Part shown: one piece after another, positions 8,583 to 27,145 of the stretch
Layout: every line of letters starts with the position of its first letter
How positions within the stretch are numbered: the stretch's first letter is position 1
NCBI GenBank assembly: GCA_017308515.1
Contig: JAFKEN010000007.1
Coordinates: 294,957-358,956, forward strand
Length of the DNA stretch: 64,000 bases
Direction: 5' to 3'
Origin: Actinomycetales bacterium
GTDB lineage: Bacteria > Actinomycetota > Actinomycetes > Actinomycetales > Microbacteriaceae
Translations under genes and position numbers: made by a program
Notes under the pieces: model-generated
Databases searched by the model: none
What the model was told of the DNA's origin: nothing
What the model saw: the letters and a program-made list of their open reading frames with translations, nothing else

Positions 8583-8588
8583 GCCGCC

Positions 8589-10729: not shown

Positions 10730-10778
10730 ACGCGCGGGCGCCGGGCGGCCGCCGCGCCGCGGCCCGGCCGCCCTCCGG

Positions 10779-10784
10779 GATACT
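10779..10784 (+). promoter_or_regulatory. -10 element of leaderless promoter for SDR gene
   Basis: GATACT ends 6 bases before ATG 10791. The six intervening bases are all G, so the run could alternatively act as a Shine-Dalgarno placed too close to the start. Confidence 0.45.
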
Positions 10785-10790
10785 GGGGGG

Positions 10791-11561
10791 ATGGCGAGGC
10801 GCGTGGTCGTGACGGGAGCGAGTTCGGGCATCGGCGAGGCGACCGCGAGGCGCTTCGCGGCCCACGGCTGGGAGGTGCTCGGCGTCGCCCGGCGCGCCGA
10901 CCGGCTCGAGGCGCTCGCCGCCGAGATCGGGATGCGCGTCGTCGTCGCCGACGTGACCGACCCGGAGGGCGTCGCGCGGGTTCGCGACGCCGTCGCGGCG
11001 TGGGGCCCGCTGCACGCGCTCGTCAACAACGCCGGCGGCGCCCTCGGCGTCGCGAGCGTCGAGAACGGTGACGTCGAGGACTGGCGCACGATGTACGAGT
11101 CGAACGTGCTCGGCACCCAGCGCATGATCGCGGCGCTGCTGCCCGCCCTGCGGGCGGGGGCCCGCGACGACCGGGTCGCCGACATCGTCGCCGTCACCTC
11201 GATCGCGGCGACGGTGCCCTACGAGGGCGGGGCGGGCTACAACGCGGCGAAGTTCGCCCAGCACGCGCTCATGGCCGTGCTGCGGCTCGAGCTCGCGGGT
11301 GAGCCGATCCGGGTCGTCGAGATCGCACCGGGCATGGTGCAGACCGACTTCTCGCTCGTGCGGTTCAAGGGCGACGCCGAGAAGGCCGACGCCGTCTACC
11401 GCGACGTGCCCGGCCCCCTCGTCGCCGAGGACGTCGCCGAGGCGATCGTGCACGCGCTCGAGCTGCCGCCGCACGTCAACCTCGACCTCGTCACCCTCAA
11501 GCCCGTCGCCCAGGCGGCCCCGCACAAGGTCGTCCGCGCGCCGCTGCGCACGCGGGACTGA
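10791..11561 (+). CDS. Short-chain dehydrogenase/reductase (YdfG-like)
   Basis: 256 aa Rossmann-fold oxidoreductase. The cofactor motif TGASSGIGEAT sits at about 9-19 and the structural NNAG at about 79-82. The catalytic Ser (VTSIAATVP) and the Tyr/Lys pair in YNAAKFAQHAL follow. The Arg residues after beta-2 (VARRADR) favour NADP(H). The C-terminal extension (VNLDLVTLKPVAQAAP) matches the serine/3-hydroxy-acid dehydrogenase YdfG group. The start is chosen at ATG 10791, where the fold begins; no upstream coding similarity is visible. It ends 6 bases from the convergent hydrolase gene. Confidence 0.88.
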   Translation: MARRVVVTGASSGIGEATARRFAAHGWEVLGVARRADRLEALAAEIGMRVVVADVTDPEGVARVRDAVAAWGPLHALVNNAGGALGVASVENGDVEDWRTMYESNVLGTQRMIAALLPALRAGARDDRVADIVAVTSIAATVPYEGGAGYNAAKFAQHALMAVLRLELAGEPIRVVEIAPGMVQTDFSLVRFKGDAEKADAVYRDVPGPLVAEDVAEAIVHALELPPHVNLDLVTLKPVAQAAPHKVVRAPLRTRD

Positions 11562-11567
11562 CGCGGC

Positions 11568-12761
11568 TCAGAGCACCTCGAACACCGCGTCGATGAGCCG
11601 ACGCGCGCGCGGGCCGTTCGTTCCGACCGCATGCATCTTGTTGACGGAGTAGCCGAAGCCGAGCCGCTCGGCGCGGTCGGCGAAGCCGATCGACCCGCCG
11701 ATGCCGTGGTGGCCGAAGGCCTCCGGGTGCGGGCCCATGTACACCGCGTCCGGGGAGTTGAGCAGCACCCCGAGGCCCTGCCGGTAGTGACGCTCCTGCA
11801 GCAGCTCGATCATGTCGTGCTGCATCGTCGTCATCGTGTCGAGCGCCTGCTCGCTGAGCAGCCGCACGCCGTCGACCTCGCCGGCGGCGAGCGCGCCGTA
11901 GATGCGCGCGACCGAGCGCGCGTTGCCGTGGCCGCTGCCGCTGGGCATCTCCATGCTGCGGAACTCGGGCGAGTTGACCATCTCGCCCCAGGTGCCGGGC
12001 GGGTTCTGGGCGAAGGCGAGAACCCGGAGGGAGTCCTCGGCCTCGCTGTTCTGGGCGTCGAGGAGCTTGGGGCCCGCACTCGGGATCAGGGGAGTGACCC
12101 GGTGGTGCTCGGCGGCGGGGAGGCCGATCCAGTAGTCCGCGCCGAGCGGGCCGGCGATCTCCTCGCGCACGAAGGGGCCGACCAGCTTGCCGGTGGTGCG
12201 CCGCATGACCTCGCCGAGCAGGTAGCCCTGGGTGTGGACGTGGTAGGCCGCGACGGTGCCCGGCTCCCACAGCGGCGCCTGGGCGGCGAGCGCCGCGACC
12301 ATCGCCTCGCGGTCGTACATGGCGCCGGGCCAGAGCTTGTCGGGGAACAGCGCCGGCAGTCCCGCCCGATGGTCGAGCAGGTAGCGCACCGGCAGATCGG
12401 CCTTGCCGTTCGCGGCGAACTCCGGCCAGTACCGCGCGACCGGGGCGTCGAGTTCGACGATCCCGCGGTCGAGGAGCATGTTGAAGGCGATCGCGGTGAT
12501 GCCCTTGGCGACCGACATCATGCCCACGAGCGTGTCGTGCTCCCACTCGCGCGTGCGCTCCGGGTCGACCCACCCACCCCAGAGGTCGACGACGGTCTCA
12601 CCGTCGATGACGACGTTCACGGCGGAGCCCAGTTCGTCCTCCACCCGGTAGTTCTCGACGAACGCGTCCACCACGGGGCGGAAGCGCTCGTCGTAGCTGC
12701 CGTGAAGAGGCAGGCGGCGGCCGTCGATCTCCACATCGTCGGGGGCGGGGCGGGAACTCAT
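11568..12761 (-). CDS. Class-C beta-lactamase-fold serine hydrolase (esterase/EstB-like)
   Basis: 397 aa from ATG 12761, preceded by a good GAGAGGA Shine-Dalgarno at 7 bases. The nucleophile motif S-x-x-K is S83-V-A-K86 (MMSVAKG). A Tyr-containing second motif lies in AAYHVHTQGYLLGEVM, and the third motif region is GHHGIGGSIGFAD. This family includes esterases, DD-peptidases and lactone/amide hydrolases. There is no signal peptide, so it is cytoplasmic and unlikely to be a beta-lactamase. It is divergent from the flavin oxidase gene across a shared operator region. It may open an ester or lactone before oxidation (inference). Confidence 0.88.
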   Translation of the reverse strand: MSSRPAPDDVEIDGRRLPLHGSYDERFRPVVDAFVENYRVEDELGSAVNVVIDGETVVDLWGGWVDPERTREWEHDTLVGMMSVAKGITAIAFNMLLDRGIVELDAPVARYWPEFAANGKADLPVRYLLDHRAGLPALFPDKLWPGAMYDREAMVAALAAQAPLWEPGTVAAYHVHTQGYLLGEVMRRTTGKLVGPFVREEIAGPLGADYWIGLPAAEHHRVTPLIPSAGPKLLDAQNSEAEDSLRVLAFAQNPPGTWGEMVNSPEFRSMEMPSGSGHGNARSVARIYGALAAGEVDGVRLLSEQALDTMTTMQHDMIELLQERHYRQGLGVLLNSPDAVYMGPHPEAFGHHGIGGSIGFADRAERLGFGYSVNKMHAVGTNGPRARRLIDAVFEVL

Positions 12762-12796
12762 CGGCGAATCCTCTCGGCTCGCGGGCCCGGCGTCGG

Positions 12797-12826
12797 TTGG
12801 ACTCGCGTTGCTGACAACTATATTAT
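12797..12826 (+). promoter_or_regulatory. Promoter for the flavin-oxidase/SDR operon
   Basis: TTGGAC at 12797-12802 with TATATT (12819-12824, 16-base spacer) or TATTAT (12821-12826, 18-base spacer). This AT-rich patch stands out in a GC-rich sequence and lies directly against the operator-like repeat at 12826-12836. Confidence 0.6.
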
Positions 12827-12836
12827 CGTCAGACAG
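12808..12836. promoter_or_regulatory. Candidate GntR operator region A (divergent hydrolase / oxidase promoters)
   Basis: On the minus strand 12826-12836 reads CTGTCTGACGA (9/11 to the consensus TTGTCTGACAA). A second, one-base-shorter copy TTGCTGACAA lies at 12808-12817. The pair brackets the -10 of the oxidase promoter and sits between the two divergent genes, so one regulator could control both. Confidence 0.65.
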
Positions 12837-12906
12837 GATACGAGCGCGAGGCGGCGCCCCTCTCGGGACCGGACGAGCGCCCCATGACACGGGAAGAAGC
12901 TCTTCG

Positions 12907-14475
12907 ATGGTGAACGCCGCCCCCTACGTACTCGACGACCGTGTGGCCGATCGCCTGATCGCCGTCGTCGGATCCGACAACGCTCTGCGCTCGCAGCCCG
13001 AACGCGACCAGTATCGCGACCCGTTCTGGCACTCCGAGGATCGCACCTACGACTCGTCCCTCGTGCTGTTCCCCGAGTCGCGGGAGCAGGTGCAGGAGAT
13101 CGTCCGCATCGCCAACGAGCACGGAGTCCCGCTGTGGACCTCCTCCCAGGGGCGCAACAACGGCTACGGAGGGCCCTCGCCGCGCGTCCGCGGCTCCGTG
13201 CTGGTGAGTCTGCGGCACATGAACAAGGTGCTCGAGATCGATCCCGAACTCGCCTACGCCGTGGTCGAGCCGGGCGTGAGCTGGTTCGAGCTGCGGGAGG
13301 CGCTCGACGCGGCCGGGCACACCGATCTGTGGTTCTCGGTGCCCGACCTCGGCTGGGGGAGCGTCGTCGGCAACTCCCTCGACAACGGGCTCACCTACGC
13401 GCCCTACGGTTCGGACTTCCAGAAGATCTGCGGCATGGAGGTCGTGCTCGCCGACGGCGACGTGCTGCGCACCGGCTTCGGGGCCCAGGAGGGCAACGGT
13501 GCCTGGCACCTGTACCCGCGCGGCTTCGGGCCCGTGCTCGATCCGATCTTCCTGCAGTCGAACTTCGGCATCGTCACCCAGGCGGGGATCTGGCTCATGC
13601 GCCGGCCGGAGGCTTACGCGCCGCTGTTCCTCACCATCCCGCGCAACGACCAGCTCGCCGCGGCGGTCGACATCTTCCGCGAGTGGCGGCTCGACGGCGT
13701 GGTCACCGGCATCCCGAGCATCCAGAACCTCGTCACGATGTCGGCCCAGTTCGACCACACCCGAGAGCTGTACCTGCGTGCCGAGCCGGCGATGAGCGAC
13801 GAGGTGCTCGACGGCTACGCCGAGCAGACCGGCCTCGGGCGCTGGGGCGCGCGCACCGCACTCTGGGGCGACCGGGTCGTCGTCGAGCACCAGCTCGAGC
13901 GGATCCGCCGCGAGTGGGGCGCGATCGAGGGCGGCACCGTCATGAACGAGCGCATCTACGCGCGCGACGAGTGGGACCAGCTCACGAAGTTCGTCGACAA
14001 GGTGCAGGCGGGCATCCCCAACATGGACATCATCCAGGCGACCCCCGCGCACATCGGGCACACCGGGTTCGCGCCGGTGCTGCCGCTGCGCGGATCCACC
14101 GTCGCCGAGAACGTCGAGCTGATCCGCGCGACGATCGAGGAGGGCTTCGGCAACAACCACGTCTGCGCGCTCTACTTCCCGAACGACCGCAGCTGCATCA
14201 TCGTCAACAGCATCACCTTCGACGTGACCGACGCCGCGGTCGCCGAGAAGGCCTACGGCACGATGAAGCGCCTGGTGCTCGAGGCCGGCCAGCGCGGCTA
14301 CACCGAGTACCGCGCGCACGTCGACCTGATGGACACCGTCTCGGACCAGCTCGACTTCAACGACCACGCCTATCGGCGCTTCACGGAGCGGATCAAGGAT
14401 GCGGTCGACCCCAAGGGCATCCTCGCCGCGGGCCGTCACGGTGTGTGGCCCACCCGGTTCCGGGAGTCCTCGTGA
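12907..14475 (+). CDS. Vanillyl-alcohol-oxidase/4-cresol-dehydrogenase-type FAD oxidoreductase
   Basis: 522 aa, two-domain VAO/PCMH fold. The FAD-binding PP domain (about 50-235) contains QGRNNGYGG (Y87), VVEPGVSWFEL, VPDLGWGSVVGN (D147) and SNFGIVTQAGIWL. The cap domain has NNHVCALYF (H418), YTEYRAH (Y468, R469) and the terminal GILAAGRHGVWP. By family alignment from memory these correspond to VAO Y108, D170, the flavin-linking H422, and Y503/R504, which bind para-substituted phenolates. Such enzymes oxidise 4-alkyl- or 4-hydroxymethyl-phenols through quinone methides. The start is the ATG/Shine-Dalgarno-proximal one (GGAAGAAGC upstream). It is followed by an SDR 19 bases downstream. Confidence 0.9.
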   Translation: MVNAAPYVLDDRVADRLIAVVGSDNALRSQPERDQYRDPFWHSEDRTYDSSLVLFPESREQVQEIVRIANEHGVPLWTSSQGRNNGYGGPSPRVRGSVLVSLRHMNKVLEIDPELAYAVVEPGVSWFELREALDAAGHTDLWFSVPDLGWGSVVGNSLDNGLTYAPYGSDFQKICGMEVVLADGDVLRTGFGAQEGNGAWHLYPRGFGPVLDPIFLQSNFGIVTQAGIWLMRRPEAYAPLFLTIPRNDQLAAAVDIFREWRLDGVVTGIPSIQNLVTMSAQFDHTRELYLRAEPAMSDEVLDGYAEQTGLGRWGARTALWGDRVVVEHQLERIRREWGAIEGGTVMNERIYARDEWDQLTKFVDKVQAGIPNMDIIQATPAHIGHTGFAPVLPLRGSTVAENVELIRATIEEGFGNNHVCALYFPNDRSCIIVNSITFDVTDAAVAEKAYGTMKRLVLEAGQRGYTEYRAHVDLMDTVSDQLDFNDHAYRRFTERIKDAVDPKGILAAGRHGVWPTRFRESS

Positions 14476-14494
14476 GCGGCGTGGGCGCGGCCCG

Positions 14495-15313
14495 ATGACC
14501 CGGGTCGCGGGATCGGTCGCGGTCGTGACCGGAGGCGCCTCCGGGATCGGGCGGGGCATCGCGGAGCAGCTCATCGCGCGTGGCGCGCGGGTCGCGATCG
14601 CCGATATCGAGGCCGGAGCGGTCGAAGCGGCCGCGGCCGAGATCGGCGCGCACCCGCTCGTCGCCGACGTGTCGCGCCTGGAGGATGTGCAGGGTGTGGC
14701 CGACCAGGTGCTCGAGCGGTTCGGCCGCGTCGACATCGTCGTCAACAACGCCGGAGTCGGTCCGTTCGCGCGCATCGCGGATCTGACGATGGACGATTGG
14801 CGCTGGATGATCGACGTCAACCTGTTCGGCGTCATCCACGGCGTGCACGTCTTCCTGCCGCTGCTCGAGGCCAACCCGGACGGCGGACATCTCGTCAACA
14901 CCTCCTCGATGTCGGCGCTCACCCCGTTCGAGACGCTCGGCTCCTACGCCGTGACGAAGTTCGGCGTGCACGCGCTCACCGAGGTGCTGCAGGCCGAGCT
15001 CGCGAGCGCCGGCAGCCAGGTGCACGCCACCCTGCTGGTGCCCGGCTCGGTGCGCACCGGGATCGCGCAGAGCACCCGCCACCGCCCCGCCGATGCCCCC
15101 GGCTCGCTGCGCGACGCCCAGATCGGTCTCGGGTTCTCGAGCAGCTCGCGCTGGCTCGATCCCGCCGACGTCGGCCGGATCACGGTGCGCGCGATCGAGA
15201 ACGACGACCCCTACGCGATCACCCATCCCGATCGGTGGCCCGCGGTCGCCGCGCGCTTCGCCGGCATCCAGGCCGCTTTCGAGAAGTACCCGCCGATCGA
15301 CGGCGAGGCCTGA
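14495..15313 (+). CDS. Short-chain dehydrogenase/reductase (island SDR 1)
   Basis: 272 aa starting at ATG 14495, 19 bases after the oxidase gene and co-directional. TGGASGIGRGIAE is the cofactor loop and the Asp after beta-2 (IADIEAG) favours NAD(H). NNAGVGPFAR, the Ser in NTSSMSALTP and the YAVTKFGVHAL Tyr-Lys pair form the active site. The C-terminus is extended (about 30 residues) and resembles SDRs that act on larger alcohol/ketone substrates. The most economical role is oxidising or reducing the product of the neighbouring flavoenzyme (inference). Confidence 0.88.
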   Translation: MTRVAGSVAVVTGGASGIGRGIAEQLIARGARVAIADIEAGAVEAAAAEIGAHPLVADVSRLEDVQGVADQVLERFGRVDIVVNNAGVGPFARIADLTMDDWRWMIDVNLFGVIHGVHVFLPLLEANPDGGHLVNTSSMSALTPFETLGSYAVTKFGVHALTEVLQAELASAGSQVHATLLVPGSVRTGIAQSTRHRPADAPGSLRDAQIGLGFSSSSRWLDPADVGRITVRAIENDDPYAITHPDRWPAVAARFAGIQAAFEKYPPIDGEA

Positions 15314-15373
15314 GCGCCGGTCGGCGGCGTGCGACGTCGTTGACGTCTCGGAACGCCGAGCGGCGCCCGCGCC

Positions 15374-16159
15374 TCAGAACGCGTAGCGGCGCTTGCCGCC
15401 GTCGACGTGCAGCACCTCGCCGGTGATGTAGCTCGCGAGGTCGGAGGCGAGGAAGGCGACGAGCGCGGCCAGCTCGGCGGGATCGCCGAAGCGGCCGAGC
15501 GGGATGTCCATCTCCCGCACGTGCCGGGCGCGATCCTCCTCGGTGGGGAAGATCCGGGCGAGCTGCTCGGTCAGCACGGTTCCGGGCGCCAGGCAGTTGA
15601 CCGTGACGCCGTCGGCGCCGACCTCGCGCGAGAGGCCCTTCGCCCAGGCGTGCACCGCCGCCTTGGCGGAGTTGGCGGCGTTGAGGGACGACTGCAGCGA
15701 CCCGTCGGCGAAGACCGGGTTGCGTGCCGGCTCGGAGGAGCCGGTCACGTTGACCACGCGCCCGTGGCCGCTCGCGCGCAGGAACGGCAGCAGCGCCTGG
15801 GTCAGCCGGCGGAGGCTGTCGAAGTTGAGCTCCATCGCCTCGGCCCAGGTGGCGTCGTCGGCGTCGATCGCGACGGTGCGCGAGCCGCCGGCGGCGTTCA
15901 CCAGGATGTCCACCCCGCCGTGCCGAGCGACCTCCTCGGCGACGTGCGCCGCAGAGGCCGGGTCGGTGAGATCGACGGGCAGCGCCCGCACCCGGTCGGT
16001 GCCGTGCTCGGCGACGAGCGCGTCGAGGGCATCGGCGCGGCGGGCGAGCACGGTCACCTGCGCCCCGGCCTCCACGAGCGCGATCGCGCTCGCGCGGCCG
16101 ATGCCGGCGCTCGCGCCCGAGACGACGGCACGCCGGCCGTCGAGGTCGATGCCGATCAC
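15374..16159 (-). CDS. Short-chain dehydrogenase/reductase (island SDR 2)
   Basis: 261 aa beginning at a GTG that overlaps the transporter ATPase stop by 4 bases, so it is the last gene of the importer operon. SGASAGIGRASAI is the cofactor loop, RRADAL after beta-2 suggests NADP(H), and the NAAGG motif is present. The usual catalytic Tyr-x-x-x-Lys appears as NSAKAAVHAW, with Asn where Tyr is expected. The Ser region reads VTGSSEPAR. The C-terminus ITGEVLHVDGG is standard. The missing Tyr makes it a divergent SDR; alignment could reveal a shifted Tyr. Co-transcription with an importer implies action on the imported compound. Confidence 0.85.
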   Translation of the reverse strand: MIGIDLDGRRAVVSGASAGIGRASAIALVEAGAQVTVLARRADALDALVAEHGTDRVRALPVDLTDPASAAHVAEEVARHGGVDILVNAAGGSRTVAIDADDATWAEAMELNFDSLRRLTQALLPFLRASGHGRVVNVTGSSEPARNPVFADGSLQSSLNAANSAKAAVHAWAKGLSREVGADGVTVNCLAPGTVLTEQLARIFPTEEDRARHVREMDIPLGRFGDPAELAALVAFLASDLASYITGEVLHVDGGKRRYAF

Positions 16160-16983
16160 GCCTCCGCTCCGGAGCCGGAGCCGGAGCCGGAGGTGGCCGC
16201 GTGGCGCACCAGACCGTGCACCTCGGCACGGATCGCGGCGAACTCGTGGGTGCCCTTGGTCTCGATCTGGTCGCGCTCGGCGCCGAGCGGCACGTCCACG
16301 ATGTCCGCGACGGTCGCGGGCGAGCCGGAGAGCGCGACGACGCGGTCGGAGAGGTAGACGGCCTCGTCGATGTCGTGGGTGACGAGCAGCACCGTGAGGT
16401 GGAGGCTGTGCTGCAGCCGCAGCACGAGGTCCTCCAGGTCGGCGCGGGTCTGGGCGTCGACGGAGGCGAAGGGCTCGTCCATGAGCAGCACCGTCGGGTT
16501 GTACGCCAGCGCGCGCGCGATCGCGACGCGCTGCTGCATGCCGCCCGAGAGCTGCCAGGGGTACTGGTGGACGACCGCCGCGGCGAGACCGACCTGGGTG
16601 AGCGCCTCGCGGGCGCGGCGGTCGGCCTCGCTCCGGGAGACGCCGTTCGCGCGCAGCGGGAGGGTGACGTTGTGCAGCACCGACGACCACGGCATGAGGG
16701 AGCGGCTGTAGTCCTGGAAGACCACCGCGACGCCCGGCTGCGGCGCGGTCACCCGCTCGCCCAGCACGAGCAGCTCGCCCTTGGTCGAGCGCTGCAGCCC
16801 CGCCAGGCAGCGCAGCAGCGTCGTCTTGCCCACGCCGGAGGGCCCGACGATGCAGACGAACTCGCCGCGGCGCACCGCGAAGTCGATCCGGCCGAGCACC
16901 TCACGGGGGCCGTAGGAGTGCCCGAGACCGCGGGCCTCGAGCGCGACGGGGGTGCTCGTGGAGTCGGATGAGGTCGGCGTCAT
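16156..16983 (-). CDS. ATPase of an NMT1/TauA/SsuA-type ABC importer
   Basis: 275 aa from ATG 16983, overlapping both neighbours by 4 bases. Walker A is GPSGVGKTT, the signature is LSGGMQQR, Walker B is VLLMDEP, and the H-loop is LLVTHDIDEAV. These place it in the nitrate/taurine/sulfonate importer ATPase group (COG1116). A Ser/Thr-rich N-terminal tail of 14 residues precedes the fold, and the C-terminus ends with a short Gly-Ser repeat (SGSGSGSG) just before the stop. It energises the two permeases encoded immediately upstream. Confidence 0.93.
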   Translation of the reverse strand: MTPTSSDSTSTPVALEARGLGHSYGPREVLGRIDFAVRRGEFVCIVGPSGVGKTTLLRCLAGLQRSTKGELLVLGERVTAPQPGVAVVFQDYSRSLMPWSSVLHNVTLPLRANGVSRSEADRRAREALTQVGLAAAVVHQYPWQLSGGMQQRVAIARALAYNPTVLLMDEPFASVDAQTRADLEDLVLRLQHSLHLTVLLVTHDIDEAVYLSDRVVALSGSPATVADIVDVPLGAERDQIETKGTHEFAAIRAEVHGLVRHAATSGSGSGSGAEA

Positions 16984-17771
16984 GAGGCCCCTCCCAGTCG
17001 GGATTGCTGAAGACGGTGCCAGCGCAGCACGTAGCGCTCGGCGATACGGAAGAGGATGTTGAGCAGGTAGCCCAGCAGGCCGAGGGCGACGATCGCGCTC
17101 CACATGTCGGAGATCCGGAACTCGCTCTTCGCCGTCATGAGGAAGTAGCCGACGCCGCCGCTGGCCCCGACCGTCTCGGCGACGACCATGATGATCAGGG
17201 TGATCGCGAGCGAGATGCGCGCACCGGCGAAGATCTGGGGGCCGGCCGACGGCAGGATCACGCGGAACAGCCGACGCACCCGCCCGACCCGGAACACCCG
17301 CCCCACATCCAGCAGCACCGGCTCGACCGCGCGCACGCCGTCGAGGGTGTTGAGCAGCACGGGCCACGCCGCGCCATAGGCGACGAGGAGGATGCGCATC
17401 TCCTGGTCGATGCCGAACAGCACGATGAACAGCGGCAGCAGCGCCACGCCGGGCACCGCGCGCGCGGCCTCGACGATCGGTCGCACCGCGCGCTCGAGCG
17501 GGGTGACGAGCCCGAGCAGGGTGCCGGCCACGATCCCGACGAGGAGCGCGGTGCCGTAGCCGACCAGGATCACCTGCAGGCTCGGACCGAGATTGTCGAG
17601 CAGGCTCATCGGGTCGAGCCAGTTCTCGACGAAGGCGGTCATGATCTTGCGCAGCGACGGGAAGTAGACGGAGTTGACCGACTCGCTGGCGAACCACCAG
17701 ATCGCGACGAGCAGGACCGGCAGCCAGATCTCCAGCGCGATGATGAGGCCGGTGCGGCGCACGGCGCTCAC
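16980..17771 (-). CDS. ABC importer permease (TauC/SsuC type), subunit 1
   Basis: 263 aa from GTG 17771, which overlaps the upstream permease stop (GTGA). About six membrane helices are visible. The cytoplasmic EAA-like loop (ALLPLFIVLFGIDQEMRILL through VLLDVGRVFRVG) couples to the ATPase. The family is BPD_transp_1. Two non-identical permeases in the operon suggest a heterodimeric channel, unlike the usual homodimer of taurine transporters. Confidence 0.9.
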   Translation of the reverse strand: MSAVRRTGLIIALEIWLPVLLVAIWWFASESVNSVYFPSLRKIMTAFVENWLDPMSLLDNLGPSLQVILVGYGTALLVGIVAGTLLGLVTPLERAVRPIVEAARAVPGVALLPLFIVLFGIDQEMRILLVAYGAAWPVLLNTLDGVRAVEPVLLDVGRVFRVGRVRRLFRVILPSAGPQIFAGARISLAITLIIMVVAETVGASGGVGYFLMTAKSEFRISDMWSAIVALGLLGYLLNILFRIAERYVLRWHRLQQSRLGGAS

Positions 17772-18607
17772 GAGTGCTGCTCCCGGCGCACGGAGGGATG
17801 CCAGCGCAGCAGGCGGCGCTGGGCGGCCCAGAAGCCGCCGTTCACGATGAGCCCGAGCACGGCCGCGACCAGGACATAGGCGTACATGCGCGTGTTGTCG
17901 TAGAAGGCCTGTGCGTTCGCGATCTCGAAGCCCACGCCGGGAGCGCCGCCCAGCAGCTCGCCCGAGACCGTCAGCAGCAGGCAGATCGTGGTTCCCAGCC
18001 GCACCCCGGTCATCACGAACGGGATCGCGCCGGGCACGAAGATGTGGCGGATGTACCAGGCACGGGGGATGCGATACGAGCGCGACATCTCGGCCAGCAG
18101 CGCCTCGCCCTGCCGCGCCGCGTAGATCGACTGGATCAGGATCGGCCAGATCGCGCCGGACACCGCCAGCACGAGCACCATCTCGAACTTGGCGCCGAAC
18201 ACCAGCAGCAGCAGCGGCAGGATCGCGATCGGAGGGATCGTGCGCAGGAAGTCGAAGAGCAGCCGAGTGCTGCCGGCGCCGATCGGATTGGCGCCGATCG
18301 CGAGACCGAGGGGGATGCCGACGACGATGCAGATCGCCAGGCCGAGCGCGAAGGTGCCCAGGGTGATCGCGATCGCGACCCAGAATCCGCCGGTGATCGC
18401 GAGTTCGCCCAGCCGCGCGATCACCTCGGCGGGCGGCGGCAGGGTGCTGGGCGGGAAGAGCGTGGAGGCGAACCACCACACCCCTCCCGCCAGCAGCACC
18501 GTGCCGGTCTGGATGAGGAGCCAGGAGAGCCGACCGAGCCGGCGCGGGGTCGAGGCGGCGTCGGGCGCCTCATCGGCCCGCGCGCTCGGCTCGGTCTGGA
18601 TCGTCAC
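17768..18607 (-). CDS. ABC importer permease (TauC/SsuC type), subunit 2
   Basis: 279 aa with a polar N-terminal tail of about 25 residues and six membrane segments. The coupling loop contains IPPIAILPLLLLVFGAKFEM and LAEMSRSYRIPRAWYIRHI. It lies 17 bases downstream of the binding-protein gene and overlaps the second permease by 4 bases, so the four transporter genes form one translationally coupled unit. Confidence 0.9.
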   Translation of the reverse strand: MTIQTEPSARADEAPDAASTPRRLGRLSWLLIQTGTVLLAGGVWWFASTLFPPSTLPPPAEVIARLGELAITGGFWVAIAITLGTFALGLAICIVVGIPLGLAIGANPIGAGSTRLLFDFLRTIPPIAILPLLLLVFGAKFEMVLVLAVSGAIWPILIQSIYAARQGEALLAEMSRSYRIPRAWYIRHIFVPGAIPFVMTGVRLGTTICLLLTVSGELLGGAPGVGFEIANAQAFYDNTRMYAYVLVAAVLGLIVNGGFWAAQRRLLRWHPSVRREQHS

Positions 18608-18624
18608 CGCTCCTCATCCTCCGA

Positions 18625-19620
18625 TCAGTTGAACTTGACGAGGAGATCCTCGCCGGTCGGCGCGGTGCTCGCGTCGAGCTGACCGGCGTCGATCATGAAC
18701 TTGATGAACTTGTCGAGGTCGGCCGCCGTGATGGGCTGGTCGCCCCAGTGCGGGAACCCGGTGACCTTGTCGAGCACGGCCGGGTCGACGGTAGTCGAGC
18801 TCTTCGCGGTCTCGATCGCGAGCGCGTGGTCGTTGTTCGCGGCGGCGTTCGCCTCCTGCAGGGCGGCCTGGAAGGCCTTCACGGCCTCCGGGTGCGCGTC
18901 GGCGTAGGCCTGCGTCGTGACGTAGATGAACGTCGGCACCCCGGGCACCGTGAGCTGCTCCGGGTTGCCCACCTGGACGAAGCCCTGCTCCTCGGCGGCC
19001 GCGAGGAGCGGCTGCGCGAGGTTGGCGGCGTCGAGCTGACCCGCGAGCAGCGCCGGGATGGTCTCCGGCTGGGCGATCTGCACCCACTGCACCGTGCTCG
19101 GGTCGGCGCCGACCGCCTTCATGGAGGCGCTGATGAGCGCGACCGGCGTGCTTCCGAGCGCGTTCACGCCGACCTTCTTGCCCTCGAGGCCGGCCCAGCC
19201 GGTGATACCCGAGTCGGGGGAGGTGACGACGCCCACGTAGCCGGCGTCGACATCCACGCCCACCATCATGGCGCCCACCGCGACGACCCCGAGGTCCTCC
19301 TTGACCGCGTTGATCGCGGTCGGGACGTCGATCGAGGTGAAGGTGAGGTCGCCGTTGAGCAGCAGCGGGATCGAGTCCGGCCCCGAGGTGATCGTCTGGA
19401 GGGTCACGTCGAGACCGTGGTCGGCGAAGATCCCCTCGTTCTGGCCGATGTAGACCGCGGCGTTCGACATCACGGGGTAGGTCGCGACCGTGATGGCCGT
19501 GGACTCGCCCGAGGTCGGGTCCGGTGCGGGGGTGTCGCCCGAGGCGCACGCCGCGAGCGCGACCGCGGCGATGGCGACGGCGCCCGTGGCGCCGAGGAGA
19601 CGAAGGTGTCGGTGATTCAT
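18625..19620 (-). CDS. NMT1/TauA-family substrate-binding lipoprotein
   Basis: 331 aa. The lipoprotein signal peptide has the lipobox LAAC (MNHRHLRLLGATGAVAIAAV followed by ALAAC), with Cys25 as the lipidated residue. The mature part is an SBP class II fold of the NMT1/SsuA type, with YPVMSNAAVYIGQNEGIF at the N-terminus and a second-lobe SASMKAVGADPSTVQWVQI. Relatives bind taurine, alkanesulfonates, thiamine precursors or aromatic acids, so the ligand is open. It is first in the operon and follows an operator-bearing promoter. Confidence 0.92.
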   Translation of the reverse strand: MNHRHLRLLGATGAVAIAAVALAACASGDTPAPDPTSGESTAITVATYPVMSNAAVYIGQNEGIFADHGLDVTLQTITSGPDSIPLLLNGDLTFTSIDVPTAINAVKEDLGVVAVGAMMVGVDVDAGYVGVVTSPDSGITGWAGLEGKKVGVNALGSTPVALISASMKAVGADPSTVQWVQIAQPETIPALLAGQLDAANLAQPLLAAAEEQGFVQVGNPEQLTVPGVPTFIYVTTQAYADAHPEAVKAFQAALQEANAAANNDHALAIETAKSSTTVDPAVLDKVTGFPHWGDQPITAADLDKFIKFMIDAGQLDASTAPTGEDLLVKFN

Positions 19621-19735
19621 GACGGTGAGCCCTCCTTTGGGTTCGGTGTCGTTGCAAGGGTGCCGGTCCGATACCGGCGGGGGGATGGTGTCCGGGGCTC
19701 CGCGGAGCCGGCGGTCAGCGTCCGGTCGGGGCCAT

Positions 19736-19763
19736 TCAATACCAGCTATCTGTTGTCAGTCAA
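19736..19763 (-). promoter_or_regulatory. Promoter of the ABC-importer operon
   Basis: On the minus strand, TTGACT (19763-19758) is separated by 16 bases from TATTGA (19741-19736). The -35 is embedded in the operator-like repeat at 19753-19763. A 6-bp inverted repeat AGCTAT/ATAGCT (19744-19749, 19768-19773) surrounds it. Confidence 0.6.
19753..19763 (-). promoter_or_regulatory. Candidate GntR operator B
   Basis: Minus strand reads TTGACTGACAA, 10/11 to the consensus TTGTCTGACAA, and covers the -35 of the importer promoter. Binding would prevent transcription of the binding protein, permeases, ATPase and SDR 2. Confidence 0.65.
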
Positions 19764-19771
19764 ACGTATAG

Positions 19772-20554
19772 CTACAACGCGCTCTCGCGGCGGTCGAGTT
19801 CCTCGGCGAGCAGCGGCATCCCGCGCTCGAGCGTCTCCAGCCCCATCGCGGCGGCCAGGGCCATGACCTCGACGATCTCCCCGACGCTCGCGCCGTGGTC
19901 GAGCGCGTTGTTCATGTGGATCCGGAGCCCCGTCATGTGCAGGTGCGTCGGGGCGGTGTCGAAGGCGAGATAGAGGAACTCGCGCACCTTGGGCTCGAGC
20001 ACGCCGACCCGCCAGGGGGCGCCCGAGAACTCGAGGTAGGTCTCGAGGAACTCGGGCGCGAGCCGCAGGGTCTCGTCGAGGAAGTCCCGCCAGTAGCCGC
20101 GCACGGCGACGTACTCGTCGCGGATGCGCACCTGGTGCTCGGCGAGCTCCGCGCTCGCCTCCGGGGATCCGCGCTCGGCGAGCACCTCGGCGAGCACATC
20201 GGCGTTCATGCCGTGCACCCCGACGGTCGCGGCGACCACGAGGACCTCGATGATCTCCTCGGGGCTCGCCCCGGCGTCGAGCGCCTCGCGCATCCGACGG
20301 CGCATCCTCTCGGTCGAGAGGTGCGTCACCGCGGCGGCCAGCACGAGGCCGACCAGGGCGCGCACCTTCGGGGAGAGCCGGCCGCCGCGCTCCGCGACGC
20401 TGTCGAGCTCCAGGCTCGCATCGAGATACTCGGGTGTGGTCTCGGCGGCGAGCTGCCAAGCCCGGTTCCACGCGCCGAAGCGCGCCTCGATCCGGGGGCG
20501 CCGAGGATCCTCGCCCGGGCCGGGCGGTGGGGGAGTGCTCGCCGGATCGGTCAC
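19772..20554 (-). CDS. Tandem carboxymuconolactone-decarboxylase (CMD/AhpD-like) domain protein
   Basis: 260 aa from GTG 20554, overlapping the dehydrogenase stop by 4 bases. Two CMD-type helical repeats are recognisable: about 55-130 (LSPKVRALVGLVLAAAVTHL, then ALDAGASPEEIIEVLVVAA) and about 170-245 (LEPKVREFLYLAFDTAPTHL, then ALDHGASVGEIVEVMALAA). I see no Cys-x-x-Cys, so peroxidase activity is unlikely. CMD-fold proteins decarboxylate or isomerise lactones and related acids, or act without a known reaction. It is last in the four-gene operon after the lactonase-like gene. Confidence 0.85.
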   Translation of the reverse strand: MTDPASTPPPPGPGEDPRRPRIEARFGAWNRAWQLAAETTPEYLDASLELDSVAERGGRLSPKVRALVGLVLAAAVTHLSTERMRRRMREALDAGASPEEIIEVLVVAATVGVHGMNADVLAEVLAERGSPEASAELAEHQVRIRDEYVAVRGYWRDFLDETLRLAPEFLETYLEFSGAPWRVGVLEPKVREFLYLAFDTAPTHLHMTGLRIHMNNALDHGASVGEIVEVMALAAAMGLETLERGMPLLAEELDRRESAL

Positions 20555-21465
20555 GGCCGCGGCTCTCCGGTGCGCGGAGGCGCCTCGGCGAAGGCGGACT
20601 CGAGCCAGCGGGCCACCTCGGTGTGGTCCGACCCCGGCGGGAGCTCGCTCGCGGCGCGCTGCCAGAGCTCGGCGACGGCGGGTCCGAGGAGCGAGGGGAC
20701 GCCGAGCTGCTCGCCGAGACCGACGGCGACGTTCGCGTCCTTGCTGAGCAGGCCGGCCTGGAAGCCCGAGCCGTAGTCGCCGGTGAGGATGAACTTCGGC
20801 CACTTGACCTCGCTCGAGACGGAGCGGCCGGTGGAGGCGTTGAGCACCTCGACCATGGTCTCGCGCGGGATCCCGAACCGCTCGGCGACGAGCACCGCCT
20901 CGGAGGTCGCCCAGAGGTGCGCGGCCGAGACGAGGTTGTTGAGCGCCTTCGCGGCATGACCCGCGCCGACGTCGCCGACGTGCCGCGGGGTGCCGAGAAC
21001 CTCGAGCAGGGGGAGGACCGTGTCGATCGCCGGGGCGGTGCCGCCGACCAGGATCGCGAGATTGCCGGCGAGCACGCCCCGCACCCCGCCCGAGACCGGC
21101 GCGTCGACGAAGCCCACCCCGCGCTCCGCCAGGCGTTCGGCGTTGGCGATCGAGCGCGTGGGCTCGGAGGAGCTCATGTCGACCACGATCGAGCCCTTCT
21201 GCAGCGCGTCGCTCGCGAGCAGGTCGTCGAGCACGGCGTCGACGATGCGGCTGTTGGGCAGCATGAGCACGTGGATGGTCGCTGCTGCTGCCGCCGCCGC
21301 GGGGCTGGCGGCCGCGACGCCGCCCGCGGAGGTCAGCTGCTCGAGAGCCGCCGGGGAGGTGTCGAACCCGTGCACCTCGACGCCGGCCTCGATCCAGCGC
21401 GCGGCCATCGGGGACCCCATGTTCCCCAGGCCGACGAGCGAGATGCGGCCCGGACGATCAGGCAC
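20551..21465 (-). CDS. 3-Hydroxyisobutyrate-dehydrogenase-family NAD(P)-dependent oxidoreductase
   Basis: 304 aa beta-hydroxyacid dehydrogenase. The N-terminal Rossmann fold has VGLGNMGSPMAARW, with D in FDTSPAAL marking NAD preference. Other motifs are DAPVSGGVRGVLAG and the catalytic lysine in GHAAKALNNLVSA, followed by the all-helical C-terminal domain. Family members reduce or oxidise 3-hydroxyacids such as hydroxyisobutyrate or tartronate semialdehyde. It overlaps the CMD gene upstream by 8 bases and the tandem-CMD gene by 4. The context makes it a late-step enzyme of the island pathway (inference). Confidence 0.9.
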   Translation of the reverse strand: MPDRPGRISLVGLGNMGSPMAARWIEAGVEVHGFDTSPAALEQLTSAGGVAAASPAAAAAAATIHVLMLPNSRIVDAVLDDLLASDALQKGSIVVDMSSSEPTRSIANAERLAERGVGFVDAPVSGGVRGVLAGNLAILVGGTAPAIDTVLPLLEVLGTPRHVGDVGAGHAAKALNNLVSAAHLWATSEAVLVAERFGIPRETMVEVLNASTGRSVSSEVKWPKFILTGDYGSGFQAGLLSKDANVAVGLGEQLGVPSLLGPAVAELWQRAASELPPGSDHTEVARWLESAFAEAPPRTGEPRP

Positions 21466-21862
21466 TCCGGCCCTCCTCGTCGAGCACGTTCTGCGCCACC
21501 CGGAACGCGTCGATCGCGGCCGGCACGCCGGCGTAGATCGCGCCCTGCAGCAGCACCTCGCGGATCTCGGCCGGCGTCAGCCCGTTGTTGAGCGCACCGC
21601 GCACATGCAGGGCGAGTTCGTGTGGGCGGTTGAGGGCGGTCATCATCGCGAGGTTGATGAGGCTGCGATCGCGCCGGGCGAGTCCGTCGCGCGTCCAGAT
21701 CGCGCCCCAGCAGTACTCCGTCACGAGCTCCTGCAACGCGCCGTTGAACTCGTTCGCGTTCTCGAGCGACCGGTCGACGTACTCGGAGCCGAGCACCTCG
21801 CGTCGGACGGCGAGACCCTCGTCGTAGGTCTGCTGGTGGGTGGGCTGGGCGTGGAACGGCAC
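21458..21862 (-). CDS. PcaC-like carboxymuconolactone decarboxylase family protein
   Basis: 134 aa from GTG 21862 with an AAAGGGG Shine-Dalgarno at 8 bases. The whole protein matches the small PcaC pattern: EYCWGAIWTRDGLARRDRSL, a His in PHELALHVRGALNNG, and TPAEIREVLLQGAIYAGVPA. In the beta-ketoadipate route PcaC decarboxylates 4-carboxymuconolactone. None of the other protocatechuate ring-cleavage genes is in the window, so a related lactone may be the substrate here. It lies 26 bases after the metallo-hydrolase gene. Confidence 0.88.
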   Translation of the reverse strand: MPFHAQPTHQQTYDEGLAVRREVLGSEYVDRSLENANEFNGALQELVTEYCWGAIWTRDGLARRDRSLINLAMMTALNRPHELALHVRGALNNGLTPAEIREVLLQGAIYAGVPAAIDAFRVAQNVLDEEGRSA

Positions 21863-21888
21863 GGCGCGTGCCCCTTTCGTGGTCGGAG

Positions 21889-22689
21889 TCAGTCGGCGGA
21901 GAGGATCACGGCGTGGTCGGGCAGCCGCGGATCGCGCGGCAGTCCGGTCATGTCGAGGTCGTGGCCCGCGACGACCCGGTGAGCGGGGTCGCCGTGGGCG
22001 AGGGCGTCGATCACGTCGTAGGTGTCGGCGCTGGCCACGAGGTCGCACATGTGGCGGAAGGGTCGGCGACGCTCGAGCTCCTCGTCGAAGTGGACGGCGT
22101 CGGCGGCGAGGAGGATCGGCCCCGCGGCGCCCTGCACGCTCACCATCAGCTCTCCGGGGGTGTGCCCCGGAGCCGGAAGCAGGCGCACCCCGGGAGCCAC
22201 CTCGAGCTCGCCCGAGACCAGCTCGAGGCGCCCGCTCGCACGCAGCCCGCGCAGGTGCTCGAGCTCTCGGTCCTCGACGAGCTGGCGGGTGAGGTGCTGA
22301 TCGCGCGGATGCGCGATCCAGAAGTCGTACTCCGCGTCGGCCATGAGCACCCGCGCGTTGCGGAACCGGTCGACATTGCCGACGTGGTCGTAATGGGCGT
22401 GGCTCAGCACGAGCACGGTGTCGTCGCGATCCTCGACCTCGAGGGCCTCGAAGGCCGCGCGCGGTTCGACGAGGGTGGTGCGACCGCGACGCCGCCCGAC
22501 CTCGGGATCGAATCCGGTGTCGACGACGACCGTGCGCCCGCCGCCCCGGACGATCCAGAAGAAGTAGTCGAGCCGGATCGGGCCGTCGACCTCGCGGTAG
22601 TCGCCGTAGTTCAGATACGTGTCGGCGCGCGTGGTGTCGAGCGATCCGTAGTGGACCGCGACCACCTGGTATCCGTCATGGACTGACAA
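21889..22689 (-). CDS. Metallo-beta-lactamase-fold hydrolase, N-acyl-homoserine-lactonase-like
   Basis: 266 aa. The zinc motif H97-A-H99-Y-D101-H102 is intact, followed by a His in PAPGHTPGEL, the bridging Asp in AADAVHFDEEL and a final His in VVAGHDLDM. Length and order resemble the AttM/AiiA lactonase group, whose members hydrolyse homoserine lactones and other gamma-lactones. The predicted start is TTG 22689, inside an operator-like repeat; no ATG is available nearby. It is first in an operon with two CMD-type proteins and a hydroxyacid dehydrogenase. A catabolic lactone is therefore as likely a substrate as a quorum signal. Confidence 0.85.
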   Translation of the reverse strand: MSVHDGYQVVAVHYGSLDTTRADTYLNYGDYREVDGPIRLDYFFWIVRGGGRTVVVDTGFDPEVGRRRGRTTLVEPRAAFEALEVEDRDDTVLVLSHAHYDHVGNVDRFRNARVLMADAEYDFWIAHPRDQHLTRQLVEDRELEHLRGLRASGRLELVSGELEVAPGVRLLPAPGHTPGELMVSVQGAAGPILLAADAVHFDEELERRRPFRHMCDLVASADTYDVIDALAHGDPAHRVVAGHDLDMTGLPRDPRLPDHAVILSAD

Positions 22690-22701
22690 GCTGAACCCAA
22701 T

Positions 22702-22712
22702 CTGTCTGACAA
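22702..22712 (-). promoter_or_regulatory. Candidate GntR operator C
   Basis: The plus strand reads CTGTCTGACAA (10/11 to consensus), with a perfect core palindrome TGTC-T-GACA at 22703-22711. It overlies the predicted transcription start of the lactonase operon. A weaker copy (TGGACTGACAA, 22679-22689) overlaps the start codon. Confidence 0.7.
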
Positions 22713-22713
22713 T

Positions 22714-22742
22714 GTTATAGCCGACATTTCAGGGCACGGCAA
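22714..22742 (-). promoter_or_regulatory. Promoter of the lactonase-CMD-dehydrogenase operon
   Basis: Minus strand: TTGCCG (22742-22737), 17-base spacer, TATAAC (22719-22714). Transcription would begin near 22707, within operator C, leaving a leader of about 18 bases. Confidence 0.65.
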
Positions 22743-22780
22743 GGCGACCGCGCCCGCGAAGGACGCGATCGGCGGCGCAC

Positions 22781-23470
22781 TCAGTGGGGAAGCAGCGGGG
22801 ATGCGGCGTCGGCGAAGGTCAGCGCCGTGCGCGCCGCCTGTTCGACGTGCACGATCGCGGCGGCTCGGGCGGCGGCGGGATCACGGTCCTCGATCGCGGC
22901 CATGATCGCCCGGATCTCGAGCAGGCTCTCCGTGGGCCGACCGGGACTCGTGAGCGTGAGAGCGCGCAGTTGGGTGACCCGGCGCTGCAGCCCGCCCAGC
23001 ATCTCGCTCAGGATGGGATTGCCCGCGCCGGCGATGAGGACGCGGTAGAGCCGGTCCTTCGCGGCGAGCATCGCCCGACCGTCGCGCAACGCCGACTCCT
23101 CAACCGATCCGAAGGCCGCGCGCAGCTCGGCGCGCTGCTGCTCGTCGGCGCGCTCGGCGAAGAGTTCGGCCGCCATGCCCTCGAGCTCCGCCCGCACCTC
23201 GTAGAGGTGCTCGGCCTGCTCACGCGTCGGGGCGGCCACGACCGTGCCGCGCCCGTTCCGCGATTCCACGAGTCCCTCGGACTCGAGCTGCCGCAGCGCC
23301 TCGCGAACCGAGGGCCGGCTCGCCGAGGTCATCTCGCAGAGTTCGCGCTCGACCAGGACCTGGCCGGGCCGGAGCTCCATGTTGACGATGGCGTCGCGCA
23401 GGATCGCGGCGACCTGCTCGCGGATCGGCGCGTGGCGCTGAACCCGGCGGTCTCCCAGGGGTATGGACAC
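22781..23470 (-). CDS. GntR-family regulator, FadR/FCD subfamily
   Basis: 229 aa from GTG 23470 with a GGGAGAAG Shine-Dalgarno. The winged HTH (about 10-80) shows REQVAAILRDAIVNMELRPG, SASRPSVREALRQLESEGLV and the wing GRGTVVAAPT. The all-helical FCD ligand domain (about 85-215) carries the metal/acid-ligand residues expected as D/N and His, including a His in AAIVHVEQAARTAL. FCD regulators usually sense hydroxy- or dicarboxylic acids and bind short palindromes of the form GT-N3-AC. Four such sites surround the island genes, one upstream of this gene, so it is the likely island repressor and autoregulator. Confidence 0.92.
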   Translation of the reverse strand: MSIPLGDRRVQRHAPIREQVAAILRDAIVNMELRPGQVLVERELCEMTSASRPSVREALRQLESEGLVESRNGRGTVVAAPTREQAEHLYEVRAELEGMAAELFAERADEQQRAELRAAFGSVEESALRDGRAMLAAKDRLYRVLIAGAGNPILSEMLGGLQRRVTQLRALTLTSPGRPTESLLEIRAIMAAIEDRDPAAARAAAIVHVEQAARTALTFADAASPLLPH

Positions 23471-23521
23471 GCGCTTCTCCCGTCCGAGGTACCTGCCGCT
23501 GCGGCACCGACGAGGGTGACT

Positions 23522-23532
23522 TTATCTGACAA
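23522..23532 (-). promoter_or_regulatory. Candidate GntR operator D (autoregulatory)
   Basis: Plus strand TTATCTGACAA, 10/11 to the consensus, 52 bases upstream of the GntR start and overlapping a GATAAA -10-like hexamer on the minus strand. No clean -35 is visible. This would give autoregulation. Confidence 0.6.
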
Positions 23533-23604
23533 TTGACGAACTGACGTGGTACGCCGCCCCGAGCGGACGTCAACTCGGTCGCGGCGCGCGGTCGGCGCCC
23601 CGGC

Positions 23605-25158
23605 TCAGGATCGGCGCGAGCCGCCGGTCGGATCGCTCGGCGCCGGCTCTGCTGCCGGCTCGGGCTCCGACGACACATAGGCCTCGAGTCCGTCGTCGAC
23701 GGGGTCGTCATCGGCGAAGGCGAGCTTGGGCACGAAGAACAGCAGCACCATGGCGACGACGGCGCCACCCGAGCAGATCGCCCACGCGGTGAGGTACCCC
23801 GAGAGGCTCGCCGCGGTTCCGGCGCCCGCCGCGATGCCCGAGGCGAGGGCGAGGCCGAACACGGCGGAGGCGAAGGCGCCGCCGATCGTCTTCGTCGTGT
23901 TGGTGAGGCCGGTCGCGATGCCGGTCTGCCCGCGGGGCGCCGCCGCCGCGGCCGCGGCCGGGAGGGCGGCGACGAGAGCGCCCGATCCGAGCCCGGCGAC
24001 GACCATGTCGAGCAGCACCTCGGTCAGGGTCGCGTGGAACGGGATGAGCAGTCCGTAGCCGACGGCGACGAGCGCGGTCGCGACGATGAGCGCGAGCCGC
24101 GGGGCGATCCGCTTTGAGAGCACCGCGAAGAGCACGGCGCCGACGATAAGCGAGAGCAGGTAGACGCCGATCACGATGGAGCGCATCCCCGAGGAGAGCC
24201 CCAGCCCGTAGCCGAGCGGGGTGCCGTCGGCCGTCAGGGCGGTCGGGTCGGTTCCGACGTAGGTGGTGAGCGGGATCTGCGCCCCGAGCACGCTGATGCC
24301 GAACAGGCCCGCCGTGATCTGCACCGGCCACATGGCGGGCTGGCGGAGCATCCGCAGGTCGATCGCGGGATCCGGGTGGCGCAGCACCCAGAAGCCGAAG
24401 GGCAGCAGCACGAGCAGGCCGAGCGCCATGAGCGCCCACACCCACCACGCCCCGAGGCCGTTGATGCGCAGCAGCATGAGCCCGGAGGTGACGAGCACGA
24501 GCGAGAGCGACAGCAGCGAGAAGCCGACCCAGTCGAGCCGGCGGCCGGGCACCCGCTCCGACTCGGGCACGCCGAAGAGGATCGCGAAGAAGACGAGCGT
24601 GACGCACGCGGCCGGCACCGAGAGGGCGAGCGGCACGCTGCCGACCGCTTCGAAGACCGCGCCGCCGCCGAGGGCTCCCGCGATCGCACCCGCCTCGAGG
24701 GCGACGACGAGGAAGCCGGCCGCGCGCCGGGTCTGCGAGGCGACGGTGCGCGTGCGCCGGCCCCGGTCGAAGATGAGCGCCACCTCGAGCGGCAGCCAGA
24801 CCGCGTAGAAGCCCTGGAAGGCCCAGGCGATCAGGAAGCTCCAGAAGTCGCCGGCGAGCACGAGCGCCCAGCTCGCCACGGCGGTGAGCGCGGTCGAGAC
24901 CAGCAGCATGCGCTTGTGGCCGTACATGTCGCCGAGCTTCGCGAGGATCGGAACGGCGAGGGCCGAGACCAGCAGCTGCGCGGCCTCGAACCAGTTGAAG
25001 TCGGCGTCGCGGATGCCCAGGTGCGTCACGAGGTCGCTCACGAGCGGCACGTAGTACCCCTGGAGGATCCCGCTGGTCAGCTCGACCAGGAACAGGAATC
25101 CGACCAGCGAGAAGGTGATCGTCCCGAGCGAACGGGGGGCGGCGACGTCGCGGCTCAT
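23605..25158 (-). CDS. 14-TM MFS transporter (DHA2-like)
   Basis: 517 aa with about 14 membrane segments. Motif A appears as AKLGDMYGHKRMLL at about 75. The protein ends in a long acidic, Pro/Glu-rich cytoplasmic tail (residues about 475-517). It lies upstream of the GntR gene on the same strand with 134 bases between them. Its own leaderless-type promoter (TAGGGT, 25165-25170) lacks the island operator. It could import or export an island compound, but its membership is uncertain. The first helix lacks the strict DHA2 D1 motif, so a metabolite permease is also possible. Confidence 0.88.
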   Translation of the reverse strand: MSRDVAAPRSLGTITFSLVGFLFLVELTSGILQGYYVPLVSDLVTHLGIRDADFNWFEAAQLLVSALAVPILAKLGDMYGHKRMLLVSTALTAVASWALVLAGDFWSFLIAWAFQGFYAVWLPLEVALIFDRGRRTRTVASQTRRAAGFLVVALEAGAIAGALGGGAVFEAVGSVPLALSVPAACVTLVFFAILFGVPESERVPGRRLDWVGFSLLSLSLVLVTSGLMLLRINGLGAWWVWALMALGLLVLLPFGFWVLRHPDPAIDLRMLRQPAMWPVQITAGLFGISVLGAQIPLTTYVGTDPTALTADGTPLGYGLGLSSGMRSIVIGVYLLSLIVGAVLFAVLSKRIAPRLALIVATALVAVGYGLLIPFHATLTEVLLDMVVAGLGSGALVAALPAAAAAAAPRGQTGIATGLTNTTKTIGGAFASAVFGLALASGIAAGAGTAASLSGYLTAWAICSGGAVVAMVLLFFVPKLAFADDDPVDDGLEAYVSSEPEPAAEPAPSDPTGGSRRS

Positions 25159-25164
25159 GCTCGC

Positions 25165-25170
25165 ACCCTA
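25165..25170 (-). promoter_or_regulatory. -10 element of leaderless promoter for MFS gene
   Basis: Minus-strand TAGGGT ends 6 bases before the ATG at 25158; no Shine-Dalgarno precedes the start. Confidence 0.55.
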
Positions 25171-25231
25171 GACCCGCGTCGGCCCGCCCCGGCGACGCCG
25201 CCGCGCGGTCACGCGGGGCCCCTGCGGGCGC

Positions 25232-25237
25232 TAGCGT
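25232..25237 (+). promoter_or_regulatory. -10 element of leaderless promoter for phosphoribosyltransferase gene
   Basis: TAGCGT ends 6 bases before GTG 25244; no Shine-Dalgarno is present. Confidence 0.55.
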
Positions 25238-25243
25238 GAGCGT

Positions 25244-25747: not shown

Positions 25748-25755
25748 GCCTCCCG

Positions 25756-26442: not shown

Positions 26443-26493
26443 AGTGGCCGCATCCGCTGCGCGCGTCGCGCGTCGCGGGGAGAGGGAGAGCGC

Positions 26494-27139: not shown

Positions 27140-27145
27140 CGAGCC

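Follow-up and report, generated by a model that had tools for sequence, protein, structure and literature searches.

AlkR, a GntR regulator of the FCD subfamily and VanR subgroup, represses a catabolic gene from a site over the −10 region, footprinted as ATTGTCAGACAAT, and is released by acyl-CoAs of the pathway (PMC12042122). Atu1419 of Agrobacterium fabrum, a VanR-type repressor, acts in a hydroxycinnamate-degradation region through several palindromes, some of which overlap the −10 element (PMC7797058), and the footprinted operators of LhgR, also of the GntR family, are TAGTCTGACAA and TTGTCTGACAA, with TTGTCTGACAA at its own promoter (PMC8206213). Here, we analysed 64,000 nucleotides (hereafter, the window) from an Actinomycetales bacterium of the Microbacteriaceae (GenBank assembly GCA_017308515.1, contig JAFKEN010000007.1, positions 294,957 to 358,956), in which a catabolic island carries four related near-palindromes. 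These are very probably the operators of the island's own GntR/FCD regulator, of the VanR subgroup, which would repress all five transcription units of the island. The sites are listed below; mismatches are counted against the 11-mer TTGTCTGACAA, of the palindromic form TTGTC-N-GACAA.

12826–12836, minus strand CTGTCTGACGA, plus strand TCGTCAGACAG: operator S1, between the divergent hydrolase and oxidase genes; 2 mismatches (9/11)
19753–19763, minus strand TTGACTGACAA: operator S2, promoter of the importer operon; 1 mismatch (10/11)
22702–22712, plus strand CTGTCTGACAA, gene direction TTGTCAGACAG: operator S3, promoter of the lactonase operon; 1 mismatch (10/11)
23522–23532, plus strand TTATCTGACAA, gene direction TTGTCAGATAA: operator S4, ahead of gntR; 1 mismatch (10/11)
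22679–22689, plus strand TGGACTGACAA, gene direction TTGTCAGTCCA: additional weak site that overlaps the TTG start codon and is 23 bp from S3

The four coordinates and the scores of 9, 10, 10 and 10 matches out of 11 given in a first-pass annotation of this DNA were all reproduced. Its placement of the sites also stands in that all promoters are served; the units, however, number five, since S1 is common to two divergent ones. S3, which it had placed over the lactonase start, in fact lies upstream of that start, 13 bp from the outermost candidate codon (TTG, 22689); the gene caller prefers 22665, and position 22689 is overlapped instead by the fifth, weaker site, absent from the earlier list.

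The AlkR operator contains the exact 11-mer. Because the AlkR footprint is ATTGTCAGACAAT and LhgR protects TTGTCTGACAA and TAGTCTGACAA, the consensus of the island sites corresponds, by this comparison, to an operator experimentally known in the GntR superfamily. AlkR shares subfamily and subgroup with the island regulator and ranks third among its fold matches (TM score 0.78–0.85), but is only about 25% identical to it and controls an alkane monooxygenase; the island has genes for a phenol oxidase of the vanillyl-alcohol oxidase (VAO) type, an importer, and lactonase-like and CMD proteins, and this different context implies that the effector probably differs as well. LhgR, which regulates lhgO of L-2-hydroxyglutarate metabolism and has L-2-hydroxyglutarate as its effector, is likened by operator alone. 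Atu1419 is a fold match to the island regulator but differs in its palindrome, ATGTATACAT, in being a tetramer and in its three-His metal site, of which the island regulator keeps one His. PmiR of Pseudomonas aeruginosa (7xp0/7xp1) is both the best sequence match among solved structures (E 1e-19) and the best fold match; it differs in having His where the island regulator has L141 and I186/R187.

The regulator

22781–23470, minus strand: GntR/FCD regulator, VanR subgroup (Pfam GntR and FCD; AlphaFold2 model; fold matches)

The N-terminal GntR winged helix-turn-helix scores 69.2 bits against PF00392 (cut-off 27) and the C-terminal FCD effector domain 88.9 bits against PF07729 (cut-off 24.3). 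In the AlphaFold2 model (pLDDT 88.5) the C-terminal domain has six helices, H83–107 to H198–223. This domain has six helices in the VanR subgroup and seven in the FadR subgroup (PMC7797058, PMC12042122); thus, the modelled protein is assigned to the VanR subgroup. In Foldseek comparisons the fold resembles VanR members more closely than FadR members, with TM scores of 0.78/0.85 for AlkR, 0.80/0.85 for 7u5q and 0.69/0.78 for PmiR, against 0.49–0.54 for FadR. R52 and R56 are invariant in 26 homologues and correspond, by alignment offset, to R45 and R49 of AlkR, which are required for AlkR binding. The metal ligands of TM0439, Atu1419 and LldR (Asp/Asn and three His) were not found as a set in the regulator; in its alignment with PmiR, L141 stands in place of the first His and I186 or R187 in place of the second, and H208 alone is kept.

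The motif in the window and the genome

Among the 1024 palindromes of its form, TTGTC-N-GACAA ranks first over the four island promoter regions, with a total of 5 mismatches; the next palindromes, GC-rich, have 7. At up to 2 mismatches the window holds 8 strand-matches (2.17 expected), a number reached in 0 of 100 shuffles. Genome-wide counts were obtained by pattern searches. At up to 1 mismatch they gave 5 strand-matches in 2.85 Mb, of which one is at the promoter of a GntR paralogue on contig C4, one in a stretch without called genes on C13, and three inside the 12-kb island.

A palindromic matrix was then trained on 26 sites from relatives, none from the window. Its top four positions in the whole window are S3 (21.6), S4 (20.8), S2 (16.5) and S1 (13.0); the fifth position scores 9.4 and the sixth, the additional site at 22679–22689, 8.5. 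The relatives' sites were chosen by similarity to the same consensus, which makes the matrix independent of the window sequence and not of the hypothesis, so that its contribution is to set the four sites apart from every other window position. A possible extra site, GTTGCTGACAA (12807–12817, plus strand), on the opposite side of a shared TATATTA, has a matrix score of 4.67; as a second operator for the hydrolase promoter it was dropped, being weak and not conserved in the related locus L038. Outside the island, the best of the window are two adjacent weak matrix matches in non-coding DNA at 41924–41944 (CTTTCTGACGA, ATGTCGAACGA).

Over 30 sites the consensus is TTGTCNGACAA, with G at position 3 in 30/30, and A at position 8 and C at position 9 in 28 each. 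It contains the GT-N3-AC core of FCD operators, from which the single sites S2 (TTGTCAGTCAA on the plus strand) and S4 (TTGTCAGATAA on the minus strand) deviate.

Sites in related genomes

Around the homologous regulators of the closest relatives (G018, G014 and a Subtercola metagenome-assembled genome, MAG), 13 matches were found at up to 1 mismatch, almost all outside genes, as against 0.2 expected; more distant regulator homologues, mostly from Micrococcales, gave 12 as against 1.4, and the remainder of the window none in the same comparison. Fold enrichment is quoted here because a ranking of palindromes by raw Poisson statistics across entire loci was led by GC-rich, codon-periodic words (CGTCG, CGACG). 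Across the family genomes that carry a regulator homologue, 11 of the 16 exact sites are no more than 20 kb from the regulator (0.42 expected). A search of 396 genomes at order level brought up no other close regulator.

The positions of the sites agree as well. L038, in G018, has TTGTCTGACAT at 14286–14296 between divergently arranged counterparts of the hydrolase (74%) and oxidase (70%) genes, and holds homologues of the short-chain dehydrogenase (SDR; 76%) and the regulator (70%). The Subtercola MAG (L082) has sites upstream of the lactonase operon (5526, equivalent to S3), the regulator and the oxidase/SDR pair. In L046 (G093; regulator 47% identical) gntR has an exact palindrome on either side: one, at 9670–9680, is ahead of an importer operon homologous to that of the island, and the other ahead of an operon with homologues of the lactonase, CMD, dehydrogenase and oxidase genes. 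Microbacterium sp. BR1 (L083; regulator 54%) has degenerate sites only, the best two in the stretch between the CMD and regulator genes. Since gntR is often inside an operon in relatives, a scan of only the 350 bp upstream of it is uninformative. Autoregulation is supported by the predicted sites in this island and in the Subtercola MAG.

The palindrome is often paired, at about 18–31 bp (L082, L039, L041; e.g., G126, G228, G180, G201, G168), an arrangement that suggests cooperative binding of two dimers. G018 has a far larger complement of related clusters (L039–L040, L044, L170–L171): three regulator homologues, of which two share a contig (70% and 57%), repeated oxidase–SDR pairs, and five exact palindromes spread over three contigs, one of these ahead of an HpaB-type hydroxylase gene; exact sites also precede genes for other enzymes. 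Regulator homologues (L085–L119) in both Actinobacteria and Proteobacteria have a small CMD gene nearby and, in many cases, a 3-hydroxyisobutyrate-dehydrogenase-like gene as well; this grouping is a putative widespread cassette.

Promoter geometry and proposed mechanism

S1 directly follows CTATATTA in the direction of the oxidase gene, S2 is preceded by GCTATACGT in the importer direction, and S3 by GCTATAACA in gene direction. Among the 30 oriented sites, 17 have TAT or TAGT within 14 bp upstream; the corresponding numbers are 6 for the downstream side and 2 for a control stretch. Because a −10-like element so often stands ahead of the site, repression likely works by blocking transcription start. 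S2 can alternatively be read, as in the first-pass annotation, with a −35 element (TTGACT) inside the operator; repression would follow under either reading.

A dimer of the regulator would read TTGTC on each strand via its winged helix-turn-helix and sit beside or over the −10 element and the transcription start, excluding RNA polymerase. The hydrolase, oxidase–SDR, importer–SDR and lactonase–CMD–dehydrogenase units and gntR itself would thereby be shut off. The regulator would be released, and the whole island switched on simultaneously, by a small molecule that the pathway makes or imports; the likeliest candidate is a para-substituted phenol or its product.

Alternative explanations

Several observations weigh against the four sites being operators of the island regulator in its role as a repressor. 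No site at up to 1 mismatch lies ahead of gntR in L038, although its regulator is the closest homologue; in L051 and L098 no clear site was found beside the regulator, and the Pseudomonas relatives (about 40% identity) lack the motif as well as a clear site at that place. At up to 2 mismatches the genome shows no enrichment (44 matches, 53 for a reversed control), so that single weak matches such as S1 carry little weight by sequence alone; the support for S1 comes from its conservation and its fourth rank with the relatives-only matrix. At S4, an obvious −10 element directly upstream was not seen.

It is unlikely, though the best surviving alternative, that the sites are real operators from which the GntR protein activates, or acts dually, at some promoters. 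FCD proteins that do both exist, FadR being an example (PMC12042122), and some of the relatives' sites, like S4, lack a −10 element directly upstream. S1, S2 and S3, however, follow a TATA-like element within a few bases, over the expected start, as fits repression, and repression from sites that cover the −10 is known for AlkR and Atu1419 (PMC12042122, PMC7797058).

Still less probable is binding by another regulator, such as one of the other GntR paralogues of the genome. The FCD-type paralogue on C4 has similar tandem palindromes, TTGTCACACAA and TTGTCGAACAA, 20 bp apart at its promoter (C4:284741, 284761), and the motif alone therefore does not name its binder. The island sites, in contrast, accompany homologues of the island regulator across genera; around the nearest paralogue of the genome (40%, on C5) there is no match at up to 2 mismatches, and the C4 paralogue is just 33% identical to the island regulator over the aligned part. 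The C4 palindromes (L047:6742–6772, equal to G000:C4:284741–284771) lie just upstream of their GntR paralogue and are probably its own autoregulatory operators.

Chance, that is, loosely matching 11-mers chosen by eye afterwards, would account for a motif derived from the island itself and at chance level genome-wide at up to 2 mismatches, but is in effect ruled out, as the relatives-only matrix puts the same four sites first and the motif is enriched and conserved in relatives.

Repression of all units by the island regulator thus keeps by far the greater share of the probability. The first-pass annotation had expected the motif to be scarcer elsewhere in the genome and to recur at matching positions in relatives. 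The former holds at up to 1 mismatch, where three of five matches are in the island, and fails at up to 2, where counts are at control level; the latter holds for the hydrolase/oxidase, importer and lactonase promoters and, in the Subtercola MAG, for gntR, but not ahead of gntR in L038. Its proposal of one regulator repressing all units and itself is strongly supported as to a single regulon, because of the matrix, the conservation at promoters across genera, the enrichment near homologous regulators and the footprinted operators, whereas the direct binding of the regulator to the candidate operators and the direction of its effect at individual promoters are our inference. The evidence supports refining that interpretation: the regulator to the VanR subgroup, and the sites to positions adjoining or covering the transcription start.

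Island genes and likely pathway

11568–12734, minus strand: serine hydrolase, EstB/class C beta-lactamase fold, carboxylesterase-like (Pfam Beta-lactamase, PF00144); unit 1
12907–14475, plus strand: FAD-dependent 4-phenol oxidase, vanillyl-alcohol/eugenol oxidase family (FAD_binding_4); unit 2
14495–15313, plus strand: short-chain dehydrogenase of the oxidase operon (adh_short; gene call)
15374–16159, minus strand: second short-chain dehydrogenase, last gene of the importer operon (adh_short_C2; gene call); unit 3
16156–16983, minus strand: ATPase of the ATP-binding cassette (ABC) importer (gene call; homologous operon in L046)
16980–17771 and 17768–18607, minus strand: two ABC importer permeases (gene calls; homologous operon in L046)
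18625–19620, minus strand: NMT1/SsuA-type substrate-binding protein, first gene of the importer operon (PF09084, NMT1)
19772–22689, minus strand: unit 4 as a whole, lactonase–CMD–dehydrogenase operon
21889–22689 (or from 22665), minus strand: lactonase-like hydrolase of metallo-beta-lactamase (MBL) fold, unit 4
21458–21862, minus strand: small CMD protein, unit 4
20551–21465, minus strand: 3-hydroxyisobutyrate-dehydrogenase-like protein, unit 4
19772–20554, minus strand: two-domain CMD protein, unit 4

The solved structures nearest to the hydrolase are carboxylesterases. The oxidase matches eugenol oxidase and its relatives at E 1e-100 to 1e-103, and its YGG, VPD, GHxGF and EYR motifs align with those of solved members, as in VAO-type 4-phenol oxidases; these we take to supply the phenolate-binding Tyr and Tyr-Arg, the catalytic Asp and the FAD-linking His. 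As the motifs for substrate binding and FAD linkage are intact, the oxidase likely acts on a para-substituted phenol. Since the active-site motifs of vanillyl-alcohol/eugenol oxidases are kept, the inducer is probably such a phenol or its product, a substrate or intermediate of the pathway, of which the lactonase-like, CMD and 3-hydroxyisobutyrate-dehydrogenase-like proteins suggest further steps. A literature search on this gene set or on a eugenol-oxidase regulon found nothing relevant.

The island as a block

11562–23604: the whole island, which G032, a genome of the same genus, lacks

On contig C28 of G032 (L192) the counterparts of window positions 10780–11536 and 23753–27556 adjoin, and the flanking convergent SDR and major facilitator superfamily (MFS) genes touch, overlapping by a few bases; no regulator homologue was found in G032 at E ≤ 1e-20. 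This clean absence means that about 12 kb (11562–23604), with all operons, the four sites and gntR, was gained or lost as a whole. The GC content of the island is 71.2%, as against 73.4% in the rest of the window. The MFS transporter at 23605–25158 was rejected as an island member, as it is present in G032 without the island. Window positions 8330–10780, with open reading frames for a PadR-like regulator and a DHA2-type MFS transporter, are likewise missing at the syntenic place in the same-genus genome.

Biological meaning

This is a known type of bacterial switch, its mechanism is ordinary, and the regulon is a further example. The prediction lets the substrate of the island be sought via the compound that releases the repressor, the consensus can be used to find similar catabolic clusters in actinomycetes, and the regulator and operator are a likely pair of parts for a biosensor. 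We consider it possible, if somewhat short of probable, that the regulator represents an undescribed VanR-type clade without the usual metal site, the members of which share the operator TTGTCNGACAA and switch modular cassettes for para-substituted phenols across Microbacteriaceae-like actinomycetes; the paralogues of G018 and the sites on its three contigs, including that ahead of the HpaB-type hydroxylase gene, may then form one combined regulon answering an aromatic signal.

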